Source: Faecalibacter bovis | GTDB taxonomy: Bacteria > Bacteroidota > Bacteroidia > Flavobacteriales > Weeksellaceae | NCBI RefSeq assembly: GCF_017948305.1 | Contig: NZ_CP072842.1 | Coordinates: forward strand, 102,001-166,000 | DNA: 64,000 nt | Direction: 5' to 3' | In this document: positions 15,608 to 63,301 of the stretch, one piece after another | How positions within the stretch are numbered: the stretch's first letter is position 1 | Layout of the letters: every line of letters begins with the position of its first letter | The notes under the pieces: generated by a model | What the model saw: the letters and a program-made list of their open reading frames with translations, nothing else | What the model was told of the DNA's origin: nothing | The model's database searches: none | Made by a program: the position numbers and the translations under genes

Positions 15608-15679
15608 TAGACCCACAGGGATTCGAACCCCAACTAGCGGCACCAAAAACCGATGTGCTACCGTTACACCATGGGTCTA
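15608..15679 (-). tRNA. tRNA-Gln (UUG), copy 4 in transcription order
   Basis: 72-nt tRNA. Acceptor stem TAGACCC/GGGTCTA, D-arm GGTGTAACGGTAGCAC, anticodon loop TTTTGGT with anticodon TTG, T-arm with GGTTCGAAT. CCA is not encoded. The sequence is identical to three further copies upstream. Confidence 0.95.
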
Positions 15680-15713
15680 ACTTATTTGTTAGTTGAAAGA
15701 TAATAAAATATAG

Positions 15714-15785
15714 TAGACCCACAGGGATTCGAACCCCAACTAGCGGCACCAAAAACCGATGTGCTACCGTTACACCATGGGTCTA
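15714..15785 (-). tRNA. tRNA-Gln (UUG), copy 3 in transcription order
   Basis: Same 72-nt sequence as the other copies, separated from its downstream neighbour by 34 bases of unrelated AT-rich spacer. Confidence 0.95.
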
Positions 15786-15821
15786 TATAGTATTATATAT
15801 TTCAAATTGTTTAAAATTTTG

Positions 15822-15893
15822 TAGACCCACAGGGATTCGAACCCCAACTAGCGGCACCAAAAACCGATGTGCTACCGTTACACCATGGGTCTA
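15822..15893 (-). tRNA. tRNA-Gln (UUG), copy 2 in transcription order
   Basis: Same 72-nt sequence. A 36-base spacer separates it from copy 3. The spacer to copy 1 is 80 bases and contains a terminator-like hairpin. Confidence 0.95.
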
Positions 15894-15929
15894 TTTATAT
15901 TTTAAACTTGCAATTTATCTTTTAAAGGA

Positions 15930-15966
15930 TAAAAATGCCTCAACAAAATAAATTATCGAGGCATTA
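15930..15966 (-). terminator. Terminator-like hairpin inside the tRNA-Gln cluster
   Basis: On the minus strand AATGCCTC and GAGGCATT enclose about 20 bases, followed by TTTTATCC. It lies between the first transcribed tRNA-Gln and the remaining three, so it may limit read-through or act in processing. Confidence 0.6.
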
Positions 15967-15973
15967 GACTTAG

Positions 15974-16045
15974 TAGACCCACAGGGATTCGAACCCCAAC
16001 TAGCGGCACCAAAAACCGATGTGCTACCGTTACACCATGGGTCTA
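15974..16045 (-). tRNA. tRNA-Gln (UUG), copy 1 in transcription order
   Basis: First copy behind the promoter at 16062-16093. Same 72-nt sequence as the other three. Confidence 0.95.
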
Positions 16046-42799: not shown

Positions 42800-43186
42800 A
42801 CGAAGGGTTCAAAGCTTCATGAAAATAAAAAAAAATTTGTAGTGGCAATTTTTTACGGTCTGCCGTAGAGACGCTCAACCTTATTATGAGCTATACAAAT
42901 GTTGTAAACTTTAAAAACTAAATTCACCTCTTTAAAAGTGAAGTGCAAATTTAAAAATATTTATTCAAATAAACCAATAGATTTACCTTAAATACTTGAT
43001 ATTTTTTTAATCTTGAATTTTAAGATTTTATTAAGTTTAAAGTTAATTTATATAATTAATAATTTTATTATAATTTAATCAAGCACTCATCGATTTTTGT
43101 GAATTTTTTTCAAAATTTTTAGCATAATTTAAAAACTCATGCCTGAAAAATTTTATTAAAAAATCAAATTATTTCGCTTTACCCCC
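42800..43186. other. Intergenic region upstream of purL
   Basis: About 390 bases, mostly AT-rich. A patch at 42840-42955 is richer in G and C and holds three short hairpins: ACGG-tctg-CCGT, GCTCA with TGAGC, and TTCAC with GTGAA. On the minus strand it ends in nine T (42829-42837), as a small RNA would. The remainder (42960-43186) shows nothing I can name. Confidence 0.35.
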
Positions 43187-52200: not shown

Positions 52201-52285
52201 GGAGAGTTGGCAGAGTGGTCGAATGCGGCAGTCTTGAAAACTGTTGAGGGTCATACCTCCGGGGGTTCGAATCCCTCACTCTCCG
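52201..52285 (+). tRNA. tRNA-Ser (UGA)
   Basis: 85-nt class II tRNA. Acceptor GGAGAGT/ACTCTCC with G discriminator, anticodon stem CAGTC/GACTG-like around CTTGAAA (anticodon TGA), long variable arm GTTGAGGGTCATACCTC, T-loop GTTCGAAT. The integrase gene begins about 300 bases downstream, so its 3' end is the likely attachment site. Confidence 0.95.
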
Positions 52286-52587
52286 CAACTTATTTAATAA
52301 GTAACAGTAAAATCCCTTATTTCATACGAAATAAGGGATTTTTTTATGCCTTGAAATTAGATTCTACACATCTAAACACATTTCAAGAGCGACCCAATAG
52401 CGACCTAAAAAATAAAATCAAAAAAGGTCGTCAAAATCTCCCCTATCTCAATCGTACAATAGGATTACGGACAACTATCACTATAGCTGTACTCATAACC
52501 TAACCACGAACAAGTTCGATAAATGAACATCTTGATTCAAAACAAATAACCAGTTAATTTTTTACTAACCATTAAAAATTGAATCAA
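52286..52587 (+). other. tRNA-Ser to integrase spacer with likely att site
   Basis: 302 bases with no gene. Contents are a strong terminator at 52310-52343, a palindrome CGAAC-aa-GTTCG near 52507-52518, and 9-base inverted arms TTGATTCAA (52532-52540) and TTGAATCAA (52579-52587) that end at the integrase ATG. The rest shows nothing recognisable. Confidence 0.5.
52310..52343 (+). terminator. Terminator after tRNA-Ser
   Basis: AAATCCCTTATTTC-atac-GAAATAAGGGATTT followed by T-run, a perfect 14-bp stem. Confidence 0.9.
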
Positions 52588-53829
52588 ATGAAGAACAATT
52601 TTAAAATCCATGTCTACCCAAGACAAGCCAAAGCCAATAAACTAGGACAACAACCTATTTATTTTTGTGTACGAGTAAACGGAAAAAGATGGGAATTCAG
52701 TACAAAACAATACATTGATCCTAAAACTTGGGATGCTAAAAATTCCAAAATTAAAGGCAACAACAAAACAGCCAGTACAATAAATGCACAAGTTGAAATC
52801 ACAAAATCAAAGATTAATACAATATTCTTAGAATACAATTTCAAGAACGAAACCCTAACTATTGACACATTAAAAGAAGAAGTACAAGGAAAAACAAATA
52901 AGAATAAACGAACACTTATTCCAATATTCCAAAATCATAACAAACAAATGAAAGCCTTAGTTCCAAAAGAATATTCTCCAGGAACACTTGAAAGATACGA
53001 AACCTCACTAAGGCACACACAAAACTTCATCAAGCATCAATACAAAAAGGAAGATATTTCTCTGGACGAAATTAACCATGCGTTTATCATGGATTATGAT
53101 TTCTACCTAAGAACAGAACGTAATTGCAGCAATAACACAACAATTAAATATCTTAAAAACTTCAAGAAAATAATCAATTTATGTATAGCAAACGATTGGA
53201 TTCAAAGAGATCCATTTACAAACTACAAATCTAAGTTAGACAAAATTGAAAGAATATTCTTATCAACAGAAGAGATTCAATCCATATACAACAAAGAATA
53301 TACAACAGATAGATTAACACTTGTAAAAGACATTTTCATTTTTTCATGTTTTACTGGTTTAGCCTATATAGACATTGTAAATCTTACAAAAAACAATATT
53401 GTAAAAGGTATCGATGGACAATTATGGATTCATACCTACAGACAGAAAACTTCAACTCCAACCAAAATTCCATTATTAGAAATACCACTTGCTATATTAG
53501 AAAAATACAAGGACAATCCAATATGTGCTACTGGAAAATTATTACCTATTTACTCGAACCAAAAAATGAACGAGTATTTAAAAGAAATAACTGCAATCAC
53601 GAAAATTAATAAAGATCTAACCTTTCATTGCGCCAGACATACGTTTGCTACTACCGTTACTTTATCCAACGGAGTACCTATCGAATCTGTTTCTAAAATG
53701 TTAGGACATACCAATATTAAAACTACGCAACATTATGCAAGAATAACAGAACAAAAAATTAGCAATGATATGCAAAACTTAAAACAAGTAATTGAAAATA
53801 AATCGATTATAAATAAAAATGCAATATAG
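52588..53829 (+). CDS. Tyrosine recombinase/integrase
   Basis: Integrates and excises the element. The start is ATG at 52588 (MKNNFKIHVYPRQAKANKLG); the TTG at 52579 is within an inverted repeat. It has 413 residues. The N-terminal arm-type DNA-binding domain (VYPRQAKANKLGQQPIYFCV) is followed by a SAM-like core-binding domain (about 95-200) and the catalytic domain. Visible catalytic residues are the Lys region RQKTSTPTKIPL, HCARHTF (His/Arg), LGHTNIKTTQHYARI (second His and nucleophile Tyr). The first catalytic Arg is not at its usual place: the box reads TGLAYIDI, as in many Bacteroidota integrases. It is directly downstream of tRNA-Ser. Confidence 0.93.
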   Translation: MKNNFKIHVYPRQAKANKLGQQPIYFCVRVNGKRWEFSTKQYIDPKTWDAKNSKIKGNNKTASTINAQVEITKSKINTIFLEYNFKNETLTIDTLKEEVQGKTNKNKRTLIPIFQNHNKQMKALVPKEYSPGTLERYETSLRHTQNFIKHQYKKEDISLDEINHAFIMDYDFYLRTERNCSNNTTIKYLKNFKKIINLCIANDWIQRDPFTNYKSKLDKIERIFLSTEEIQSIYNKEYTTDRLTLVKDIFIFSCFTGLAYIDIVNLTKNNIVKGIDGQLWIHTYRQKTSTPTKIPLLEIPLAILEKYKDNPICATGKLLPIYSNQKMNEYLKEITAITKINKDLTFHCARHTFATTVTLSNGVPIESVSKMLGHTNIKTTQHYARITEQKISNDMQNLKQVIENKSIINKNAI

Positions 53830-53893
53830 ATTTATTGTTTAATTAATTATTTTTTGTAATTTATTCTAAATTAACTACTTAAATCCATATCTC

Positions 53894-54712
53894 ATGCAAT
53901 CGCCATTACTTGAAATGTATTACCAATTTGAAGAAGAAATTACTAAAATAGAGATGACAGATATTGATATTAACAAAAAAGCTTATCAAGCAATTAACAT
54001 TTCTATTAAGTACTTAAATCTTTTAGAAGAACAATTATTAATCAATAAATTTCATTCAAAACAAAGTGAAATTGAATACTTCAAATTCTTTTATCCCAAA
54101 TATTTCAATGTGCATTATTATTACACCACGATATATAATTTAGAGAATGAAAAATATCAAAAATGTTTAACTAAAGAGCAAGAGATAGAATTTTATAACA
54201 AATTTAAAGAGAAACTAAAGATTATAAACGATGCAAATTTAGACGTATTAAAACTGTTTAAACCAGAACCAGGTAATATCGATAAAAAGTTATTCCTCAG
54301 AAAAAATTATAAATGGAGGCGTAAAAATTTCACTAATTTCATCAGTGAATCATACATATTTAACACCATTTCTAATGTTGTCGGCAAGCACAAAGCCATT
54401 AAGAAACTTATTATTTATTCAGACAATAAAATTCACGAATTATCAAATTGCAAACCACCACCAACATATCAACTCAAATGGACAGCTTCAAAAGTATTAT
54501 TAATGGAGCTTATATATTCATTATATCTTATCGGATTTATAAATCAAGGTAAAGTTGAATTAACAGAATTAGTTCTATTTTTTGAAACAAATTTTGATAT
54601 TAAACTCAATAATCATAACAACATCATTCAAGATATTAAAATGAGAAAGATAAATAAATTCAAGTTATTAGATCAATTAAAAGAGGTCCTCTCAAACAAA
54701 TTAGATACATAA
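53894..54712 (+). CDS. RteC-like regulator
   Basis: 272 residues, cytoplasmic, helical, very rich in Lys, Tyr and Asn. The pattern EIEYFKFFYPKYFNVHYYYTTIY and KWTASKVLLMELIYSLYLIG match the RteC family. RteC of the Bacteroides element CTnDOT activates excision genes under tetracycline control. Relatives are common next to integrases of Flavobacteriia elements without rteA/rteB, as here. The role in excision control is inferred from family and position (65 bases after the integrase). It ends at a strong terminator. Confidence 0.82.
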   Translation: MQSPLLEMYYQFEEEITKIEMTDIDINKKAYQAINISIKYLNLLEEQLLINKFHSKQSEIEYFKFFYPKYFNVHYYYTTIYNLENEKYQKCLTKEQEIEFYNKFKEKLKIINDANLDVLKLFKPEPGNIDKKLFLRKNYKWRRKNFTNFISESYIFNTISNVVGKHKAIKKLIIYSDNKIHELSNCKPPPTYQLKWTASKVLLMELIYSLYLIGFINQGKVELTELVLFFETNFDIKLNNHNNIIQDIKMRKINKFKLLDQLKEVLSNKLDT

Positions 54713-54750
54713 AATAATCCGTAGTTGTTATTCAGCTACGGATTATTTTA
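54711..54750 (+). terminator. Terminator of the RteC-like gene
   Basis: AAAATAATCCGTAG and CTACGGATTATTTT arms around a 10-base loop. Confidence 0.85.
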
Positions 54751-54793
54751 TTAACATAACTACCATAAATAAACACTTTCATTAAAAATAACA

Positions 54794-54816
54794 CCATAGT
54801 ATGTTCCATAGTATGG
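54794..54816 (+). promoter_or_regulatory. Tandem CCATAGTATG operator candidate
   Basis: CCATAGTATG occurs at 54794-54803 and again at 54806-54815. The second copy extends to the palindrome CCATA-G-TATGG. The copies are 12 bases apart and lie just upstream of the presumed promoter of the HTH gene (CAAATTTG near 54839), a typical place for autoregulation. Confidence 0.5.
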
Positions 54817-54870
54817 AAAAAATAAATTCTAAAGTTTTCAAATTTGTAAGAGTCATAAACCTAATAACAA

Positions 54871-55143
54871 ATGAAAACAAAACGAATTAACCCAGAAGAC
54901 ATTCAACTAATTTCAGAAACTGTAATTAGCCTTCTAAAAAAAGAATTAGAAATTAAACAATCCTGCAAATGGATTACATCAAAAGAAGTTTCAAAACTTT
55001 TAGGTGTTTCAAATTCAAAACTCCAAAAGATGAGACAACAAAACCTCATCACCTATTCAAATTTTGGAAGAAACATTTATTACGACACAGACGAAATATT
55101 ACATATACTCGAACAAAATAAAGTAGATAAAATTCTACAGTAA
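54871..55143 (+). CDS. Helix-turn-helix protein, excisionase-like
   Basis: 90 residues. A helical N-terminus (EDIQLISETVISLLKKELEI) leads to a MerR/HTH_17-type winged helix: WITSKEVSKLLGVSNSKLQK, then RQQNLITYSNFGRNIYYDTD, which is the wing with the Tyr/Phe contact. Such proteins in Bacteroidota integrative elements act as excisionases or recombination directionality factors, or regulate the neighbouring genes. The tandem operator candidate at 54794 lies just upstream. It has its own terminator at 55180. Confidence 0.85.
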   Translation: MKTKRINPEDIQLISETVISLLKKELEIKQSCKWITSKEVSKLLGVSNSKLQKMRQQNLITYSNFGRNIYYDTDEILHILEQNKVDKILQ

Positions 55144-55179
55144 AATCTTATTTCATTTGGTTTTAAGTTGGTTAGGTTA

Positions 55180-55222
55180 GGCAGGTTTATTACGACAAAA
55201 AAGTAATATTCCTGCCTTTTAA
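55180..55222 (+). terminator. Terminator of the HTH gene
   Basis: AGGCAGG-tt-TATTAC and GTAATA-tt-CCTGCCT form a 13-bp stem with one internal loop, followed by TTTT. Confidence 0.85.
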
Positions 55223-55273
55223 TTTCAACCTAATCAATTACATCCTCTATTTAAGGGAAATTATAAATAAATG

Positions 55274-55472
55274 GCATAACGATTAGCAAACGAGTGTCAA
55301 TTCATCGAAGTGAAATGTAAAAATGATTAGTGAGCGATAGCGAATCATTTAATCATTTTAATGTAACAAGATGCAAATTGACCGTCGAAAATCGAAGCCT
55401 TGATTTTTTGGTTCGTTTTGGATCAAGCCAAAATGAACATAATTGCCATTTTAATCCTATCAAAGAATCTCT
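55274..55472 (+). ncRNA. Structured repeat unit A (candidate RNA or ssDNA element)
   Basis: It begins GCATAACGATTAGC. Hairpin 1 is AAAATGATTA (55320-55329) with TAATCATTTT (55350-55359) around a 20-nt loop that includes GAGCGATAG. Hairpin 2 is GTTCGTTTTGG (55411-55421) with CCAAAATGAAC (55428-55438), one G-T pair, loop ATCAAG. CTTGAT at 55399-55404 is the exact complement of that loop. It ends with CCTATCAAAGAATCT. It is homologous to unit B 277 bases downstream. Strand is assigned by the direction of the neighbouring genes and is not proven. Confidence 0.6.
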
Positions 55473-55530
55473 CGCCAGTTCGAGTGATTATCGTTGCTCA
55501 GCAAAAGAAAATTGTATCGAGAACTAAGAC
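55473..55530. repeat. Dispersed REP-like repeat, copy 2
   Basis: CGCCAGTTCGAGTG at the left and TGTATCGAGAACTAAGAC at the right, with AGTTC/GAACT inverted. It is the same arrangement as 38820-38877 in the purL-purC gap. It sits exactly between units A and B. Confidence 0.6.
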
Positions 55531-55550
55531 TTTAATAGAGTAAAAATATT

Positions 55551-55765
55551 GCATAAAAATCGCAGACGTTAATAAAATAAATTGAAGGAGAGATAAAGAA
55601 GGATTTAGCGAACGATAGAGAGTCATTTAAATCCTTCCTCGTATTAAATTTATTTTTAGTCGAAAATCGTAGCCTTGACTTTTTTGTTTCGTTTTTGTGT
55701 CAAGACAAAAATGAAAGTAGAATAAATATAAACTAGTCATTCTGAACCTATCGAAGAATCTAAAA
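55551..55765 (+). ncRNA. Structured repeat unit B (candidate RNA or ssDNA element)
   Basis: It begins GCATAAAAATCGC. Hairpin 1 is GAAGGATTTA (55598-55607) with TAAATCCTTC (55628-55637) around a 20-nt loop that matches the loop of unit A at 16 of 20 positions. Hairpin 2 is TTTCGTTTTTGT (55687-55698) with ACAAAAATGAAA (55705-55716), again one G-T pair at the same place, loop GTCAAG. CTTGAC at 55674-55679 complements that loop. It ends with CCTATCGAAGAATCT, 9 bases before the initiator ATG. Confidence 0.6.
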
Positions 55766-55774
55766 TCTAAAAAT

Positions 55775-56638
55775 ATGAACTACATCAAACACCTTAATAA
55801 CTTCTACAATAAAATACAAATAGATCCCGAAATAGCACCATGTCAAATCGCTTTGTATTTAGCACTATTTCAATGTTGGAACAAACAAAGGTTTGAAAAT
55901 CCTATACACATCATTCGAGATGAAGTTATGCGACTAAGCAAAATCACATCCAAAAGCACCTATCATCGTTCCATGAAAATATTACACAACAATCAATACA
56001 TCATTTACATTCCATCCTATAATCCATACATAGGAAGTCAAATCTATTTCAAAGACCTAACATTAGAATTAAAAAACAACAATACAACCCAACCAAAAAA
56101 GAATAAAGCAATAAACACAGTTATTGATACACCTTTAGAACAAACCAGTCCAAAAAAGAACAAACCAATAAACAAGGTTATAGACACACCTATAAACACA
56201 CCCATAGAGCCTATATATAAACAGGAAAACAATAAACAGGAAAACATAAATAGCTTATGTAAGCAAGCACAAATTCCTTTTTTAATTTTTGATAAAAATT
56301 TTAAAAATAACATAGCTAAAAATCAATCAGCTGGAAAAGCTGAAATGCTCCAAAAAGAAAAAAGTTCCGTCAAAAAAGAAAAAGGTACAAATCCAACATT
56401 AGACCAAGTCAAAGAATTCTTTCAAGATAAAGACAATACATCAATCGAAGCTGAAAAGTTTTTTTACTATTTCGAATCCAATGGATGGTTAGTTGGAGGA
56501 AAAACCAAAATGAAAAACTGGAAGGCTGCTGCAAATAATTGGATGATTAACGCAACCGTATTCTCTAAAAATCAAAACAACGGATTACAAAAAAAATTAG
56601 ATACATCACTAAACAAAAAATACGACGAACCATTATAA
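55775..56638 (+). CDS. Winged-helix replication initiator-like protein
   Basis: 287 residues. The N-terminal 100 residues (IAPCQIALYLALFQCWNKQR, then RDEVMRLSKITSKSTYHRSM and YIIYIPSYNPYIGSQIYF) look like a winged helix as in phage replisome organisers. The linker holds a duplicated KKNK-IN-VIDTP stretch. The C-terminus (VKEFFQDKDNTSIEAEKFFY, then GWLVGGKTKMKNWKAAANNW) matches the DnaD-like tail seen in many phage and island replication proteins. It is followed after 15 bases by a DnaC-like loader gene, which supports a role in starting element replication. Inferred from architecture and neighbour. Confidence 0.7.
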   Translation: MNYIKHLNNFYNKIQIDPEIAPCQIALYLALFQCWNKQRFENPIHIIRDEVMRLSKITSKSTYHRSMKILHNNQYIIYIPSYNPYIGSQIYFKDLTLELKNNNTTQPKKNKAINTVIDTPLEQTSPKKNKPINKVIDTPINTPIEPIYKQENNKQENINSLCKQAQIPFLIFDKNFKNNIAKNQSAGKAEMLQKEKSSVKKEKGTNPTLDQVKEFFQDKDNTSIEAEKFFYYFESNGWLVGGKTKMKNWKAAANNWMINATVFSKNQNNGLQKKLDTSLNKKYDEPL

Positions 56639-56653
56639 CCAATACTCAAAACA

Positions 56654-57259
56654 ATGATCAATTACCAAAAACTTATATTTCACTTAGAACAACATGCCCG
56701 AAAAAATATACATCCCGAATATTCTTTTCAAAAAGAGGATTTCCCATTCATCGTTCGATTAGCTGCTTATTTCCTAAATGACGAAGAAAAATGCAAGGAA
56801 TTGAACATCGACCTCAACAAAGGAATTCTATTAACTGGACCAATCGGTATTGGGAAAACAACCTGGTTTCGATTAATGCAAACCATTATGGTCAAAGAAC
56901 AAAAATTCTATTACACAACATGCAGAGATATTTCATTTGAATTTATCCGAGACGGATATCAAACTATTAACAAGTACAGCAAAGGAATCCCTTACAATTT
57001 CCCAATGAAAAACATTTGCTTCGATGATCTAGGCACAGAAAATAACATCAAATATTTCGGCAACGAATGCAATGTAATGGCTGAAATTATATTAAGTCGA
57101 TACGACATATTTATAAATCATGATATCAAAACACACATCACCACTAACCTATCTGCTTCCGAAATCGAAAAGTATTACACCGAACGTGTACGCTCTCGTT
57201 TAAGACAGATGATGAATGTACTTTCTGTACCTGCGGATAGAAAGGATAAGAGAATCTAA
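56654..57259 (+). CDS. DnaC-like AAA+ ATPase (helicase loader)
   Basis: 201 residues. Walker A is GILLTGPIGIGKTTWFRL (about residues 58-75) and Walker B is NICFDDLGTENN. Sensor 1 fits THITTNLSASEIEKYY, and the arginine finger region is ERVRSRLRQMMNVL. This is the DnaC/IstB-type clade of loaders that bring the host DnaB helicase to an origin. It is 15 bases after the initiator-like gene. It is shorter at the N-terminus than E. coli DnaC. Together they form a replication module for the element. Confidence 0.85.
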   Translation: MINYQKLIFHLEQHARKNIHPEYSFQKEDFPFIVRLAAYFLNDEEKCKELNIDLNKGILLTGPIGIGKTTWFRLMQTIMVKEQKFYYTTCRDISFEFIRDGYQTINKYSKGIPYNFPMKNICFDDLGTENNIKYFGNECNVMAEIILSRYDIFINHDIKTHITTNLSASEIEKYYTERVRSRLRQMMNVLSVPADRKDKRI

Positions 57260-57305
57260 AAATAATTTTATATTCGCATTAAATTATATATTTAAAAACT
57301 TATAA

Positions 57306-57710
57306 ATGAAAAATAAATTACTATTCTTACTTCTATGTGTAGGTTCAATAACTTTTGGACAAAAAAAAGAATATGACAAAAAATTAATTGGTTGTTTTAA
57401 AGGATCTGAGCAAAACAAACAAGTAGATGGTATTTCTAAATATTGGATTTCTTGTCGATTTGAAAAAGGATTAAGTGTTCTTAATTTTATAACAATCGAT
57501 GAAGATGGTGATGTAGAACAATTTACTGAGAATGGAAATTGGTGGACAAATGATGGAAAATATTATGAATACCATAAAACAAGTAATCTAACAGATATTT
57601 ACACTTACCAAACACTTAAAAATGGTGATATAGCTTTTAAAGCAATAAAGATTATTGGTGAAGATAATAACACATACGAATTTGTTGATTATAAGATTCA
57701 AGAAGATTAA
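57306..57710 (+). CDS. Small secreted protein of unknown function
   Basis: 134 residues with a clear signal peptide (KLLFLLLCVGSITFG, cut before QKKEYD). The mature part starts KKLIGCFKGSEQNKQ with two cysteines (GCFKGS and ISCRF) and carries GNWWTNDGKYYEYHKTSN. It looks like a small beta-barrel fold of lipocalin-like size, but no family is recognised. It is unusual to find a periplasmic protein between replication and SOS genes of an island. It has its own terminator at 57735, so it is a separate cargo unit. Confidence 0.6.
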   Translation: MKNKLLFLLLCVGSITFGQKKEYDKKLIGCFKGSEQNKQVDGISKYWISCRFEKGLSVLNFITIDEDGDVEQFTENGNWWTNDGKYYEYHKTSNLTDIYTYQTLKNGDIAFKAIKIIGEDNNTYEFVDYKIQED

Positions 57711-57734
57711 TAATTAAAGATAAAAATAAACTCC

Positions 57735-57766
57735 AACCTCAACTCCCCAGTTGAGGTTTTTTTATT
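57735..57766 (+). terminator. Terminator of the small secreted protein gene
   Basis: CCTCAACT-cccc-AGTTGAGG followed by seven T. Confidence 0.9.
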
Positions 57767-57851
57767 TTTATCTATTAGTTTTCAAATATAAATTAAATGT
57801 ATATTTATATAAAATGATTTATTATTAATTGAATATAGAATTTGTAAATTA

Positions 57852-58283
57852 ATGTATCGTTGTTTAGAATGTAATCATCATATTACAGAAGCTGTATTTA
57901 TATATTCTTTAGAAAAATATAATACACCATTATGCATGTATCATCAAAATTGGATAAATCACATTGTACTAACATCTACTAATGAAACTATTAGATTATA
58001 TTTTGCATTAAAAGTTTTAGGTTTAAATCCTATTCTTGAAAAATTTGATGGATACAAACATATAGATATTGCTTTTCCTAAAGAAAAAATAAACATTGAA
58101 GTTGATGGAAGTCATCATAATAAAAATAAATTTCAAGCAATGACTGATTTACAACGAACTTATTACTCTTTTATGAAAGGTTTCTATACAATAAGAATTC
58201 CTAATTCATTAGTTAATGATGATGTATTACTTGAGGAAGCTACAGATTATATTTTTAACATGGTTAAATCCCCTTCAAAATAA
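57852..58283 (+). CDS. DUF559-like endonuclease-fold protein with Cys/His cluster
   Basis: 143 residues. The N-terminus has CLECNHH and CMYHQNW, a likely zinc site. The C-terminal 80 residues resemble the DUF559/Vsr-like branch of the PD-(D/E)XK fold: YKHIDIAFPKEKINIEVDGS carries the acidic pair (D then E-x-D), followed by HHNKNKFQAMTDLQRTYYSF and IRIPNSLVNDD. Relatives are nicking or repair-type nucleases of mostly unknown target. It is placed between the replication module and umuC-umuD, with no overlap to either. A role in element DNA processing or defence is only a guess. Confidence 0.65.
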   Translation: MYRCLECNHHITEAVFIYSLEKYNTPLCMYHQNWINHIVLTSTNETIRLYFALKVLGLNPILEKFDGYKHIDIAFPKEKINIEVDGSHHNKNKFQAMTDLQRTYYSFMKGFYTIRIPNSLVNDDVLLEEATDYIFNMVKSPSK

Positions 58284-58348
58284 TCAAACAAAAAATTAAC
58301 AATTCCCACGACACCTTGTAGCGTTTATTCTTTTCATTTTTGCATTAT

Positions 58349-59614
58349 ATGTTTGCATTAGTTGACTGTAATAATTTCTACGCAAGTTGCGAAAGAGTAT
58401 TTAACCCCACCCTTAATGGTAAGCCAGTTGTTGTTTTATCGAACAATGATGGCTGTGTTGTTGCGCGATCTAATGAAGCTAAAGAATTAGGCATACCAAT
58501 GGGTGCACCTGCCTTTCAATACGAAGGATTATTCCGACAAAAAGGAGTCAAAGTATTTTCATCCAATTATGCTTTATACGCAAGTATGAGTAACAAAGTA
58601 ATGAACATACTCAAACAACATTGTCCAGAAATTGAAGTATATTCCATTGACGAATCATTTTTATACTTCAGAGGATTCGAAAACTACGATTTAATAAAGT
58701 ATTGTACACAAATCAAGGAAATGATTTACCAATACACAAAGATTCCTGTATGCATCGGAATTGCCCCTACTAAAGCATTAGCCAAAGTAGCAAACCGAAT
58801 CGCTAAGAAATACCCTATGCACCACAATGGAGTATACATGATCGATTCCCAAACCAAAATCGAAAAAGCATTAAAATGGTTACCAACCGAAGATATTTGG
58901 GGAATTGGTCGTCAATTATCTAAACGATTATCCTATTTAGGTTGTAACACCGCGTATAAATTCACTCAGCTCGAAGATGAATACCTTCGTCGTAATTTCT
59001 CCATTGTCGAACTTCGATTAAAGAAAGAATTATTAGGCGAAAGCGTGTTAGGCTTAGACGAAATCCAACACAAAAAATCCATTGCCACAACACGAAGCTT
59101 TGATCACACAGTAACAGATTACAATTACCTACACGAACGTGTTTCCACGTTTGCAGTTTCTTGTGCAGAAAAACTACGTAGAGATAAAAGCAAATGCAAC
59201 ATTATTACGGTATTTATAATGACGAACAGATTTGATAAAACGCAAGCGTTTCATTCCAACTCATTATCTACAACTTTAGATTACGACACCAATTCAAGTA
59301 TCATCTTGTCTAAAGCTGCCACTTTCTTACTAGATAAATTAGTACCGGAAGAAGGTCGTATGCCCGAATACAAGAAAGCAGGTGTAATTGTTTCAGCAAT
59401 TACACCCGATAACCAAGTACAGATGAACTTATTTGCTAAAGAATCGCCTAAACACAAATCTTTAATGCAAGTAATGGATAAGTTAAACACTTATTATGGC
59501 GATCATAAACTTGTTATAGGATCACAAGATTTATCTAAGAAATGGAAAATGAAACAAGAAAGATTATCACCCTGTTACACAACAAAACTAACTGATATTT
59601 TAAAAGTAAATTAA
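58349..59614 (+). CDS. umuC: Y-family DNA polymerase V catalytic subunit
   Basis: Error-prone translesion polymerase. The start is ATG at 58349 ([18 protein letters not shown]), not the TTG at 58340. It has 421 residues, normal for UmuC. The catalytic carboxylates are Asp in FALVDCNN and the pair in [10 protein letters not shown]. The palm and finger motifs are [20 protein letters not shown] and [20 protein letters not shown] (helix-hairpin-helix). The C-terminal little-finger and UmuC-specific parts are present. umuD follows directly, an order opposite to the classical umuDC operon. Confidence 0.95.
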
Positions 59615-60076
59615 ATGGTTAATTTTATCAAAATACCAAGATTATCACCAGAACTTAAAAATGTAGCCTACACGACAGAAGGCGAAAAAAGATACATCAA
59701 AAATTTAGGCGATGTTTCCGCAGGATTCCCATCTCCTGCCACAGATTTTATTCAGAACGAAATCTCATTAGACGAACATTTTTTAGAGAAACCCGAAGCA
59801 ACTTATCTTATTCGTGTAGGTGGTGAAAGTATGCAACCCGAATACCAAGTTGGTGACTTATTAATAGTCCGTTCAGATTTAGATCCTCAGCATATGGACG
59901 ACATTATTGTTTCCATTAATAATTCAGAATATACATTCAAACGCTACGATAAAATTAACAAGAAATTAATCTCACTCAACCCAACTTACAAAGACTGCAT
60001 TCAACTCGCAGAAGAAGACAATGCCTTAATCCTCGGTGTAGTCATTTCTTTTATCAGACAAAAAAGGAAGTTTTAG
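59615..60076 (+). CDS. umuD: UmuD-like LexA/S24 family protease
   Basis: 153 residues. It is cut by itself at the Ala-Gly bond in VSAGFPSPA (about residue 37), upon RecA filament formation, and the product UmuD' joins UmuC. The catalytic Ser is in VGGESMQPEYQVGD and the Lys in YTFKRYDKI. There is no N-terminal DNA-binding domain, so it is UmuD and not LexA. The ATG follows the umuC stop directly (TAAATGG), so translation is coupled. No LexA box was identified upstream of umuC. Confidence 0.93.
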   Translation: MVNFIKIPRLSPELKNVAYTTEGEKRYIKNLGDVSAGFPSPATDFIQNEISLDEHFLEKPEATYLIRVGGESMQPEYQVGDLLIVRSDLDPQHMDDIIVSINNSEYTFKRYDKINKKLISLNPTYKDCIQLAEEDNALILGVVISFIRQKRKF

Positions 60077-60083
60077 AAATATT

Positions 60084-60112
60084 AATCCTCAACAAATATG
60101 TTGGGGATTTTA
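60084..60112 (+). terminator. Terminator of umuC-umuD
   Basis: AATCCTCAACA-aata-TGTTGGGGATT followed by TT; a strong stem but a short T-tract. Confidence 0.65.
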
Positions 60113-60223
60113 CAACCTATTTCATCACTGCAATTCCCTTGCACACCTAAACCTTACATTTACAAACCCCTAACAATAAATATTCTCTTTTTTGCTATAT
60201 TTACATCTACTAGATAACTAACC

Positions 60224-63200
60224 ATGGCTTTCAACGAAGACTCAAGAGTAAAAATACCTGCGTTGTTACATCTAACACGATTAGGATACCAATACATACC
60301 TCAAAACCAACAAAAAAGACAAGAGGAAACCAACATATTTACAGAAATATTCTTTGACAGCATTCAAAGAATCAATCCCGATGCAACAAAAGACGAAATT
60401 AAAGTAGTCTTAGATGAGATTACTTTAGAAGCGAATTTTGAAGACCTAGGAGAAAAATTCTACAAAAGATTAACTTCTTCATCAGGAATCAAATTAATTG
60501 ACTTCAAAGATTTCAACAATAATTCGTTTCATGTAACGACAGAATTAACTTGTCGTAACGGAGAGGAAGAATTTCGTCCAGATATCACCATTTTAATTAA
60601 TGGAATTCCATTGTCTTTTATTGAGGTTAAAAAACCTAATAACAAAGACGGTATTCTAGCAGAACGTAAACGCATCAATGAACGTTTTCAAAATCCTAAA
60701 TTCAGAAGATTTGCAAACATTACGCAGTTAATGATCTTCTCTAACAACATGGAATACGAAGACGGGGTAATAGAACCAATACAAGGGGCTTACTATGCAA
60801 CTTCAGCATACAAAAAATTACATTTCAGTTATTTTAGAGAAGATCCAGACTATCCTGTACAAGATCGTTTAGAAGAAATTAATTTAGACAATGAACTTGT
60901 AATTCTGAAGGATAATAACCTTTATGCTATTAAGGATAGTCCTGAATATATTACCAATAAACATTATGATTCTCCGACTAATAGAATATTAACTTCATTA
61001 TTATCACGTCAGCGTTTTGCATTTATTTTAAAATATGCGTTGGCGTATGTTCACGAGGAAGAAAATGGTGTTCCTGTAGTTCAAAAACACATCATGCGTT
61101 ATCCTCAGATATTCGCAACCATGGCAATTGCTGCAAAGTTAGACCAAGGCATAAACAAAGGAATCATTTGGCATACGCAAGGATCTGGTAAAACCGCGTT
61201 AGCCTATTACAATGTTAAGCATTTAACAGATTACTATCAAAAAAAGAACATCATACCAAAGTTCTATTTCATTGTAGACCGTATCGACTTATTAGAACAA
61301 GCAACAACCGAATTTTCAAATCGTGGGTTAAAAGTTAACCGTGTCAATTCTCGTGTAGAATTTATCAATGATATGAAAAAAGTTGGAGCAATTTTGAATC
61401 ACTCAGGTGAACCAGAAATTACAGTAGTAAACATCCAAAAGTTTTCAGACGAAGTAAGTACAGATATGCCTATTGATTATGATATCAATGTACAGCGAAT
61501 CTATTTCTTAGATGAAGCACACCGTTCATACAATCCAAAAGGTAACTACTTAGCCAACTTAATCAGTTCAGATAAAAATTCAATTAAAATTGCGTTAACA
61601 GGTACACCTTTATTAAAAGAGGTAGCGAAAGAATATGATTCTAAAAAGTTGTTTGGAGATTATATCCACAAATATTATTACAACATGTCCATTGCTGATG
61701 GTTATACGTTGCGTTTAATCCGAGAAGAGATTAAAAGTAAATTCCAAATGCAAATGACTGAGGTATTAGAGCGTTTACAGGTAAAACAAGGCGATATTCT
61801 AAAAACAGAGGTCTATGCTCACGAGCAATACGTTCGTCCATTGTTAGAATATATTACAGATGATTTAATCGAATTCCGTGTAGCCAATAACGACAGCTCA
61901 TTAGGGGCAATGGTCGTTTGCGAATCCGCAACACAAGCCAAAAAGTTATTCGAATTATTCGAAGAGAAATATGGCGTACAAGAAATTGATGCAAGCAAAT
62001 TAGTAGCCGAACCATACAATGTCTACCAAACAAAACAGCCTAAATTAAAAGCGGCTTTAATCTTACATGATGCCAACGATAAAGAAATACGAAAAGATTT
62101 AATCAAAGGCTTTAAAAGTGGTAAAGTAGACATCTTATTTGTATATAATATGCTACTAACAGGTTTCAGTGCAAATCGTTTAAAGAAATTGTATCTAAAT
62201 CGTGTTATAAAAGATCATAATTTATTACAAGCCTTAACACGTGTTAACCGTCCATACAAAAGTTATGAATACGGTTACGTTGTTGATTTTGCAGATATAT
62301 CAAAAGCGTTCGATCGTACCAACGCCTTGTATTATCAAGAGCTACAAAATCAATTAGGAGACGATTTCGAATTCTACAACAACTTATTCAAATCCAAAGA
62401 AGAAGTTCAAAGGGATTTACAACAAGTGAAAGAAACCTTATTTCAGTACAATACCCAGAACAAAGAAATATTCTCTCAACAAATCCAGCAAATCCAAGAC
62501 AAGAAAATTGTTTTAGATTTGGTTAAGGCACTTCAACTTGCTAAGGATTTGAGAAACGTAATCAAATTAGAAGGTTATGAGGATGTTGAGGTAGACATTA
62601 ATTTTTCAGATTATAACCGTTTCTTAATCGAAGCACGTGCACAACTGGATAAATTAAACGTCGTTGACAACTTAAAAAATAAAGAAGAAAACACCAAGCT
62701 ATTAAACTTAGCGTTAGAAGATGTTTATTTTGACTTTGTGAAAATTGGCGAAAACGAATTGGTGTTAGCCGATCAATTAAAAAATCAAATTCGTTCGACA
62801 AGAGAAGCATTGCAACACAATTTCGACCAGCAAGATCCACGTTTTATTTCGTTAAGAGAAGAGTTAGAACGTATCTTTGCCAACAAGAAATTAGATGAGG
62901 TATCTCAAGACGAAATGCAAGAGCATATTCACTTACTTAAAAATATTCACGACAAAGTAAAAGAGCTCAATCGTTTAAATAATAACCTAAAAGATAAGTA
63001 TCAAAACGACGAAAAGTACGTGCGTATCCATAATCGTTTAACCGAAAATGAATGGTTAGGTGTACAAGAGTCTAAATTATACGAGGCATTAATCAAAGTA
63101 AAAGAAAAGACAGACGAGCAAATCCTTAAAAATCAAAATATTTTAAGCAATACCGCTTTTTTCGAAAAGAATTTGATGCAAAATGTGGTGAAAGAGTTTG

Positions 63201-63301
63201 TGCAAACTCAAAAAATAAATTTAGATTTTAAAACAACTCAGAAAATTAATTATTTGATTGTAAACGAGTATCAACAACAATATAACGGATATAGACACTA
63301 A
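60224..63301 (+). CDS. hsdR: Type I restriction enzyme R subunit
   Basis: Motor and nuclease subunit of a type I restriction-modification system, 1025 residues. The N-terminal endonuclease domain has FRPDITILINGIPLSFIEVK (PD-(D/E)XK, about 118-137). The SF2 helicase motor has Walker A IWHTQGSGKTALAYY (about 317), the DEAH box IYFLDEAHRSYNP (about 430), ALTGTPLL and LLTGFSANRLKKLYLNRVI with QALTRVNRPYKS. A long helical C-terminus (about 730-1025) would contact HsdM/HsdS. hsdM and hsdS are not in the window and would be expected downstream. It has R first in the operon, which is less usual. Confidence 0.95.
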   Translation: MAFNEDSRVKIPALLHLTRLGYQYIPQNQQKRQEETNIFTEIFFDSIQRINPDATKDEIKVVLDEITLEANFEDLGEKFYKRLTSSSGIKLIDFKDFNNNSFHVTTELTCRNGEEEFRPDITILINGIPLSFIEVKKPNNKDGILAERKRINERFQNPKFRRFANITQLMIFSNNMEYEDGVIEPIQGAYYATSAYKKLHFSYFREDPDYPVQDRLEEINLDNELVILKDNNLYAIKDSPEYITNKHYDSPTNRILTSLLSRQRFAFILKYALAYVHEEENGVPVVQKHIMRYPQIFATMAIAAKLDQGINKGIIWHTQGSGKTALAYYNVKHLTDYYQKKNIIPKFYFIVDRIDLLEQATTEFSNRGLKVNRVNSRVEFINDMKKVGAILNHSGEPEITVVNIQKFSDEVSTDMPIDYDINVQRIYFLDEAHRSYNPKGNYLANLISSDKNSIKIALTGTPLLKEVAKEYDSKKLFGDYIHKYYYNMSIADGYTLRLIREEIKSKFQMQMTEVLERLQVKQGDILKTEVYAHEQYVRPLLEYITDDLIEFRVANNDSSLGAMVVCESATQAKKLFELFEEKYGVQEIDASKLVAEPYNVYQTKQPKLKAALILHDANDKEIRKDLIKGFKSGKVDILFVYNMLLTGFSANRLKKLYLNRVIKDHNLLQALTRVNRPYKSYEYGYVVDFADISKAFDRTNALYYQELQNQLGDDFEFYNNLFKSKEEVQRDLQQVKETLFQYNTQNKEIFSQQIQQIQDKKIVLDLVKALQLAKDLRNVIKLEGYEDVEVDINFSDYNRFLIEARAQLDKLNVVDNLKNKEENTKLLNLALEDVYFDFVKIGENELVLADQLKNQIRSTREALQHNFDQQDPRFISLREELERIFANKKLDEVSQDEMQEHIHLLKNIHDKVKELNRLNNNLKDKYQNDEKYVRIHNRLTENEWLGVQESKLYEALIKVKEKTDEQILKNQNILSNTAFFEKNLMQNVVKEFVQTQKINLDFKTTQKINYLIVNEYQQQYNGYRH

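Follow-up and report, generated by a model that had tools for sequence, protein, structure and literature searches.

Two diverged copies of a folded unit, A and B, lie between an excisionase-like gene and the putative replication genes of an integrated element in Faecalibacter bovis, and the locus raises the question whether they serve that element or are merely carried by it. The window analysed here is the whole stretch of 64,000 nucleotides (contig NZ_CP072842.1, positions 102,001 to 166,000), and positions refer to it unless genome coordinates or a locus are named. The units are embedded in a block of host-element genes (52579..57259, + strand), which lies outside the repeat itself:

52579-53829, + strand: tyrosine integrase
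53894-54712, + strand: RteC
54871-55143, + strand: helix-turn-helix protein (HTH_17/excisionase-like), 5' of the units
55775-56638, + strand: 287-aa ORF without Pfam match, 3' of the units
56654-57259, + strand: DnaC-like AAA protein, following the 287-aa ORF

Besides the integrase, RteC and the putative replication genes, the element (genes at 52579-63301) encodes a Y-family polymerase with an S24 peptidase and a type I restriction subunit. They are preceded by a tRNA gene (52201-52285), and the integrated element perhaps adjoins its tRNA target. A purine riboswitch (42820-42918, - strand) and four tandem tRNA genes (15608-16044, - strand) are found elsewhere in the window.

Units A and B

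Both units match a covariance model (R1) built from 12 copies of the home genome, A at genome coordinates 157273-157443 (E 1.4e-11) and B at 157550-157720 (E 8.5e-21). The sequence-only reading had placed them at 55274-55472 and 55551-55765 and considered them homologous over their whole length. The units are real, and their ends were corrected to 55273-55438 and 55551-55716. Likewise, A and B are copies of one repeat, and the claim of whole-length homology is only partly right because they belong to different subfamilies and the outermost stem of B (P1) is broken, with a 5' arm like one subfamily and a 3' arm like the other. Their parts are as follows:

55273-55438, + strand: unit A, an L-type copy with rod and 3' module (covariance-model match and RNA fold)
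55273-55398, + strand: rod of A with base block P0 (GGC/GCC), P1, P2, P3 and apical loop (nested stems in the MFE structure)
55320-55359, + strand: hairpin 1 of A, P3 stem and loop (sequence), with arms AAAATGATTA (55320-55329) and TAATCATTTT (55350-55359)
55399-55438, + strand: 3' module of A (sequence; S1 and S2 counted in the family alignment)
55399-55404, + strand: S1 of A, CTTGAT
55405-55410, + strand: T-rich L1 of A
55411-55421, + strand: S2 of A, first arm of hairpin 2, GTTCGTTTTGG
55422-55427, + strand: S1' of A, ATCAAG
55428-55438, + strand: S2' of A, second arm of hairpin 2, CCAAAATGAAC
55551-55716, + strand: unit B, an S-type-like copy with broken, chimeric P1 (covariance-model match and RNA fold)
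55598-55637, + strand: hairpin 1 of B, P3 stem and loop (sequence; present in the MFE fold), with arms GAAGGATTTA (55598-55607) and TAAATCCTTC (55628-55637)
55674-55716, + strand: 3' module of B (sequence)
55674-55679, + strand: S1 of B, CTTGAC
55680-55686, + strand: L1 of B
55687-55698, + strand: S2 of B, first arm of hairpin 2, TTTCGTTTTTGT
55699-55704, + strand: S1' of B, GTCAAG
55705-55716, + strand: S2' of B, second arm of hairpin 2, ACAAAAATGAAA

The two hairpins behave as first described. In hairpin 1, A and B differ at five of ten stem positions, all five being compensated on the opposite arm, and the 20-nt loops are identical at 16 positions; hairpin 2 preserves a G-T pair in both units. 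The outer stems of the rod and the S1 pairing (CTTGAT/ATCAAG in A, CTTGAC/GTCAAG in B) go beyond that description. Folded as RNA, A, whose outer stems are intact in the MFE fold, reaches z = -4.05 (none of 200 shuffles equally good) and B z = -2.24 (three of 200). The reverse strand of A folds worse (-34.2 vs -44.5 kcal/mol; reverse-strand z -2.74). A 24-nt repeat, CATTYTRAWCCTATCRAAGAATCT, occurs 3' of both units (55447-55470 and 55738-55761) and may be another small dispersed repeat.

A family of folded repeats

With unit A as query, the home genome yields 64 matches at E≤10 and 38 at E≤0.01, self included; with R1, it yields 49 at E≤1 and 45 at E≤0.01, among them the 12 copies from which the model was built. 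The aligned copies reveal a structure larger than two hairpins, consisting of a rod followed without gap by a 3' module, and most units combine a rod of more than 100 nt with the module, many copies being intergenic. A base block GRC..GYC (P0) and the stems P1, P2 and P3 make up the rod; in its internal loops GCGTTAAG faces TAGC, and its apical loop holds a two-pair mini-hairpin flanked by GA steps. Conserved unpaired motifs in the alignments are GCGTTAAG and CTGTTTGAGCG..CGAG. At L022 17183-17391 and L025 9264-9472, the apical loop carries the same small hairpin-bearing insertion, and a copy at 190 kb has its 3' module interrupted by a similar sequence, a repeat nested in a repeat.

The 3' module starts with CTTGAY (S1) and a T-rich stretch, followed by the S2 hairpin of 7-16 pairs (commonest 10), whose six-base loop RTCAAG complements CTTGAY. 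In one subfamily (12 of 116 rows), S1 is reduced to GTC/GAC. S1 and S2 are interleaved, and a strict finder, which recognised 128 of 172 units, counted zero linker bases in 126 of these modules; a classical H-type pseudoknot with both stems at full length is therefore sterically doubtful, and full-length S1 and S2 may instead represent a fully paired hexaloop or alternative folds. Pairing counts from the module finder, which was used for the flanks, neighbour genes, orientations and promoter motifs described below, are biased because it demands pairing of both S1 and S2; the covariation reported below rests only on the 12- and 116-copy alignments. While the 3' module is common to the family, the rods differ in kind: short hairpins occur in a Parabacteroides, other hairpins in Mucilaginibacter, and Propionigenium maris (loci L345-L357) combines at least three kinds of rod, as judged by eye, with one 3' module. 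On an uncultured Parabacteroides contig (L231), six copies fit into 8 kb, and five of these measure just 85-86 nt.

Conservation of the pairing was assessed in two alignments. In the smaller one (12 home copies, MAFFT, hand-made structure), 92.3% of 698 cells pair and two-sided changes occur at 28 of 59 pairs; none of 500 shuffles reached the observed values for cells paired, two-sided pairs, two-sided cells or covariation score, and 83 of 500 matched the number of further pair types. The larger one draws on the home genome, relatives and viral contigs for 116 copies, counted as 115 because identical rows enter once, and was fitted to rod and S2, with S1 left out of the aligning model. Here, 92.3% of 5,952 cells form standard pairs, 53 of 59 pairs show two-sided changes, and the covariation score is 0.475 vs 0.142 in shuffled alignments and at most 0.079 after sliding by 1-3 columns; none of 500 shuffles reached any of the five pairing measures. 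These statistics, computed without a model of relatedness, are strong, yet they are not formal R-scape values. P3, the stem of hairpin 1, is paired in 96.4% of cells and changed on both sides at all ten pairs. S1, outside the aligning model, reaches the same 96.4% of paired cells; at its last pair, U-A occurs 57 times, C-G 33, A-U 17 and U-G once, with another combination in four.

The mismatches tolerated within the helices bear on the strand that keeps the pairing. Among 172 distinct units, Watson-Crick helices with one internal mismatch of any type were collected and the mismatches counted: at a minimum helix length of 9, there were 57 G-T vs 14 A-C (35 vs 13 distinct contexts), at length 8, 69 vs 18, and at length 10, 48 vs 11. 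Base composition predicts a ratio of 1.33:1, and 12 shuffles gave 119:84 (p 3e-5 for cells, 0.018 for distinct contexts, against composition). A cruciform working on both strands should yield nearly equal numbers of both mismatches, so the excess of G-T indicates that one strand is probably selected. Probably, then, a single strand maintains the pairing, be it as RNA or as single-stranded DNA of the same polarity. Together with the pairing above shuffled and slid controls, this asymmetry supports the selected single-strand structure proposed at the outset. No named RNA family was recognised: none of the Rfam 15 matches overlapped a unit, either in the window and seven home stretches (gathering score) or in 16 loci holding copies (E≤5 or E≤1).

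Spread and sites of the copies

In a sample of the family Weeksellaceae, copies are present in 37 of 60 genomes (R1, E≤0.01), and the copy number is patchy even within one genus (44, 47 and 0 matches in genomes G000, G021 and G044). A second model (R2), built from 116 copies, found them at E≤0.001 in at least 48 of 148 genomes of the order and at least 65 of 247 of the phylum; these are lower bounds because stricter filters were applied and only 18 (order) and 10 (phylum) candidates per genome were scored. A DNA pattern of the 3' module fits at least 120 stretches of named genomes, and among the 80 listed are three of Propionigenium maris (Fusobacteriota), one of a Neomarinimicrobiota MAG and one of a Patescibacteria MAG, the others belonging to Bacteroidota of several classes, Balneolaceae and related taxa. 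Whole-genome searches of nine genomes behind such stretches (E≤0.01) gave 102 matches in Propionigenium maris (G434), 28 in Parabacteroides faecalis, 27 in Tannerella forsythia, 25 in Mucilaginibacter conchicola, nine in Capnocytophaga felis, eight in the Patescibacteria MAG and two in each of three others; MAGs may contain foreign contigs, which qualifies the MAG matches. Viruses carry the unit too: five of 18 viral stretches fitting a looser pattern hold units by the model, and a phage contig (L089) encoding a terminase, a major head protein and an endolysin has three copies. Searches at the DNA level of plasmid and phage collections (seven query/collection pairs) gave no match.

The copies are discrete, and near-identical ones stand at unrelated intergenic sites. 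This was measured on 96 pairs of copies that share at least 80% of their sequence and differ in their flanks: by some 8 nt upstream of the GRC start and some 9 nt downstream of S2', identity has dropped to the background of about 0.3. The dispersed unit is thus the folded unit. Such sharp ends with unrelated flanks are also expected of a DDE-type MITE. The other mark of this class, a target duplication next to the ends, showed up at no fixed offset among 170 units: 5-mers shared by the flanks numbered 154 vs 154.0 ± 20.4 in shuffled flanks, and 8-mers 14 vs 5.2 ± 2.5, each of the 14 at an offset of its own. An 8-bp repeat, ATGAATAA, borders the copy at 646.6 kb on both sides and is not general among the copies.

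On these grounds, we consider it somewhat probable that A and B are a non-autonomous mobile interspersed element whose folded strand is recognised by machinery encoded elsewhere. Several observations count against this reading: a general partner gene and an autonomous form were not found in the loci searched, and some sites look inherited. No coding version was seen among the 25 modules with the weakest upstream helix, taken from 108 without a recognised rod start, and several of these 25 are known rods overlooked by the finder. The comparison of relatives gave no clean empty site, their intergenic regions being too diverged, and a transposition event was not seen. Some differences in presence and absence are deletions at short repeats. 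Two congeners share one orthologous copy, and at one site the home copy has lost its whole rod between short repeats; in a unit remnant (L033 7533-7593, compared with L071), one arm has turned into an exact reverse complement of its partner, which marks template switching at a quasi-palindrome. Hence, inheritance, loss and hairpin-driven repair also shape the copy pattern. Across 133 loci with 160 modules, neighbour clustering yielded no gene family beside the module in more than five loci; in 13 stretches of Propionigenium maris, no neighbour cluster exceeds two. Four families recur in three to five loci, none of them replication genes as judged by eye from the sequence. One is an ORF of the 278-aa type, downstream of the module on the opposite strand at 0-104 nt in five loci (L247, L251, L219, L272 and L294), three of these being shown as Chryseobacterium; two further neighbour genes accompany each other in three loci, and three loci have a sugar-dehydratase-like gene. 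The site of the 278-aa ORF and the two-gene site look like single inherited sites, the former having been kept across species and not newly inserted.

The main rival is a role at transcript ends, by which rod and T tract would act as intrinsic terminator, insulator or 3'-end stabiliser of the upstream gene, with the second hairpin protecting or processing the transcript end. It would fit the rod base, GCC followed by TTGATTTTTT, the short, densely spaced copies in the Parabacteroides contig and, in part, the genomic setting. An intrinsic terminator joins a GC-rich stem to a U tract downstream of a same-strand gene; a stem and a T tract are present in the unit. Only two of 150 clusters of units lie inside an ORF of at least 100 aa. 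After subtraction of these two, of 37 with a missing and of 29 with a far neighbour, 82 clusters remained. Of their upstream genes, 54 share the strand of the unit and 28 do not; for downstream genes the split is 40 to 42, and convergent sites exceed divergent ones (20 vs 6). An earlier set of 78 loci (four overlapping an ORF call, 63 with an upstream neighbour within 600 nt, 54 with both neighbours) gave 39 same-strand and 24 opposite-strand upstream genes, with 14 convergent and nine divergent sites. This strand preference is modest; it fits a 3'-end role as well, and the opposite-strand upstream genes (28 of 82 and 24 of 63) speak against it. The 31 modules of Propionigenium maris (eight convergent, three divergent, nine sense and 11 antisense to both neighbours) look randomly oriented relative to genes.

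TAxxTTTG, a Bacteroidota promoter motif, is enriched downstream of the units (44 vs 19.1 shuffled) and depleted upstream (8 vs 14.8 shuffled; 177 flanks). Strand counts and motif placement indicate that copies tend to occupy the gap that separates a gene end from the following promoter, which would again suit a transcript end. Several findings weigh on the other side. A terminator-like hairpin already lies between stop codon and unit in 11 of 72 copies (2.4 shuffled; 14 in the antisense control; five of 77 copies with gaps below 30 nt were dropped), and if transcription stopped at the T tract, S1' and S2 would never be transcribed, in spite of their covariation. Moreover, 11 of the 45 home copies stand upstream of rRNA promoters, in the same orientation as the operon:

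L027 1932-2423: rRNA-linked unit(s), same orientation as the operon
L028 6797-7320: rRNA-linked unit(s), same orientation as the operon
L029 6199-6646: rRNA-linked unit(s), same orientation as the operon
L030 5537-6050: rRNA-linked unit(s), same orientation as the operon
L035 6558-7008: rRNA-linked unit(s), same orientation as the operon
L031 18374-18544: rRNA-linked unit(s), same orientation as the operon

These six operons are those in stretches fetched for holding units. One or two units per operon precede TAxxTTTG-type promoters, 564-566 nt before the 16S gene in five operons and 467 nt in L030, and gene conversion has probably copied them among the operons. Taken together, a transcript-end role appears rather unlikely.

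An independently transcribed small RNA family with a protein partner or trans targets would account for the strand asymmetry of the mismatches and the conserved unpaired motifs. It is set against the upstream flanks, in which the TAxxTTTG motif gives no sign of an own promoter, the range from 0 to 47 copies within one genus and the lack of a general genomic context, and is regarded as improbable.

Known systems and the preferred reading

Among known systems, REP sequences, palindromes of 20-40 nt, are one of the closest. Like REP/BIME repeats with RAYT, the present family consists of intergenic repeats in many copies, with no target duplication found and probable mobilisation in trans; its units, though palindromic, are longer and multi-stemmed, mostly a rod of over 100 nt plus a module, and they differ by their compensating changes and by their occurrence in several phyla. 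HUH elements in general include dispersed structured repeats without target duplication. The units could accordingly be remnants of a known transposon, either end hairpins of REP type served by a RAYT/Y1 transposase or a guide RNA of the TnpB type, and a weak correlation of unit and Y1 gene among the 60 genomes (both in 26, unit only in 11, Y1 only in nine, neither in 14; p 0.03) points in that direction. A RAYT/Y1 gene is, however, typically flanked by its REP repeat, and none of 30 Y1 loci listed, 97,334 bases around Y1 genes in genomes of the family Weeksellaceae, holds a unit at E≤0.1. Genome G021 has 47 units and no Y1 match. The home genome contains a single weak Y1/RAYT-like gene (208 aa; L104, genome 2340-2343 kb) beside a shortened duplicate, surrounded by short GGGCGAATTGCAATTCGCCC repeats that differ from the units and form a separate REP-like system. 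On this evidence, a RAYT/Y1 partner is not supported, and neither is a TnpB/IS605-type reRNA, the TnpB zinc ribbon (PF07282) being absent from the home genome by Pfam match; such a transposon remnant is very improbable.

Least probable of all is the role first suggested, by which the units would be an origin, a copy-control RNA or a leader that serves the integrated element. Units precede putative replication genes at three home places, and these comprise only five of the 45 home copies (A, B, one at 178.3 kb and two at 1995.7-1996.0 kb), the other 40 lying elsewhere; a plasmid copy-control RNA or leader pseudoknot, which would lie in the leader of a replication gene, is not supported. The neighbours of the 160 modules show no recurrent replication gene, the plasmid and phage collections are without a match for the queries tried, and the covariance-model search proposed with that role delivered covariation while breaking the link to replication genes. 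Besides these five copies and those at rRNA operons, the home copies adjoin other genes or sit in gene-poor stretches.

For the 3' hairpin, the nearest structural parallels are TAR-TAR* and ColE1 RNA I-RNA II, which form fully paired loop pseudoknots or kissing complexes. As in these, all six loop bases can pair without linkers; unlike these, the predicted pairing is intramolecular, with an upstream strand.

The family also resembles ERIC, RUP and NEMIS/Correia, MITE-like or stem-loop repeat families (PMC2267715), in being non-coding, intergenic, foldable and dispersed; it differs by lacking a fixed target duplication and by combining a rod with an interleaved 3' hairpin. In the main text of that article, the words Bacteroides, Porphyromonas and Flavobacteri are absent. 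Palindromic candidate structured RNAs of 80-132 bp from human microbiomes, mostly or only from Bacteroidetes, are reported in PMC8040213, one near phage genes and others predicted to be terminators. Some short Parabacteroides forms may be among these candidates. The open-access literature searched (including PMC12306157, PMC5771137, PMC8040213 and PMC2267715) gave no recognisable description of the element. It belongs with the dispersed structured repeats, a known kind, and is set apart by its size, its interleaved 3' hairpin and its multi-phylum range.

The mobile-element reading thus remains the preferred one. The family is taken to consist of non-autonomous interspersed elements that are structured and short, about 85-240 nt, and of which A and B are copies carried by an integrated element. 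The folded single strand, RNA or single-stranded DNA, with a rod followed by a loop-paired hairpin, would be recognised by a putative trans-acting machinery that copies or moves the element. The 3' module would be the invariant recognition part, and the rod could be exchanged between subfamilies. Copies would settle in the gap between a gene end and the next promoter, and horizontal transfer would spread them via phages and integrated elements and into other phyla.

A bacterial analogue of SINEs would be a bolder reading: a non-autonomous element moving via an RNA intermediate, in which the 3' module would serve as landing site of a putative reverse transcriptase or other machinery and the 5' rod would be free to change. 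Three hints were counted for this analogy: rods of different kinds attached to one 3' module, even in a single genome, the strand-biased pairing and an excess of 3' fragments. With two rod queries, the home genome shows about 13 places at which the 3' part survives by itself and two at which the 5' part does; the 13 are not all independent because many are tandem or rRNA-linked. It is a long shot.

In practice, the covariance model allows this recurrent intergenic repeat to be masked or annotated in genomes such as these. If the mobile-element reading is true, many Bacteroidota and at least one member of the Fusobacteriota carry one unnamed folded element in up to tens or more than 100 copies. 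That pairing and not sequence is conserved suggests that a component of the cell reads the single-stranded shape, which raises the question of which protein binds the unit and whether RNA or DNA is the recognised strand.
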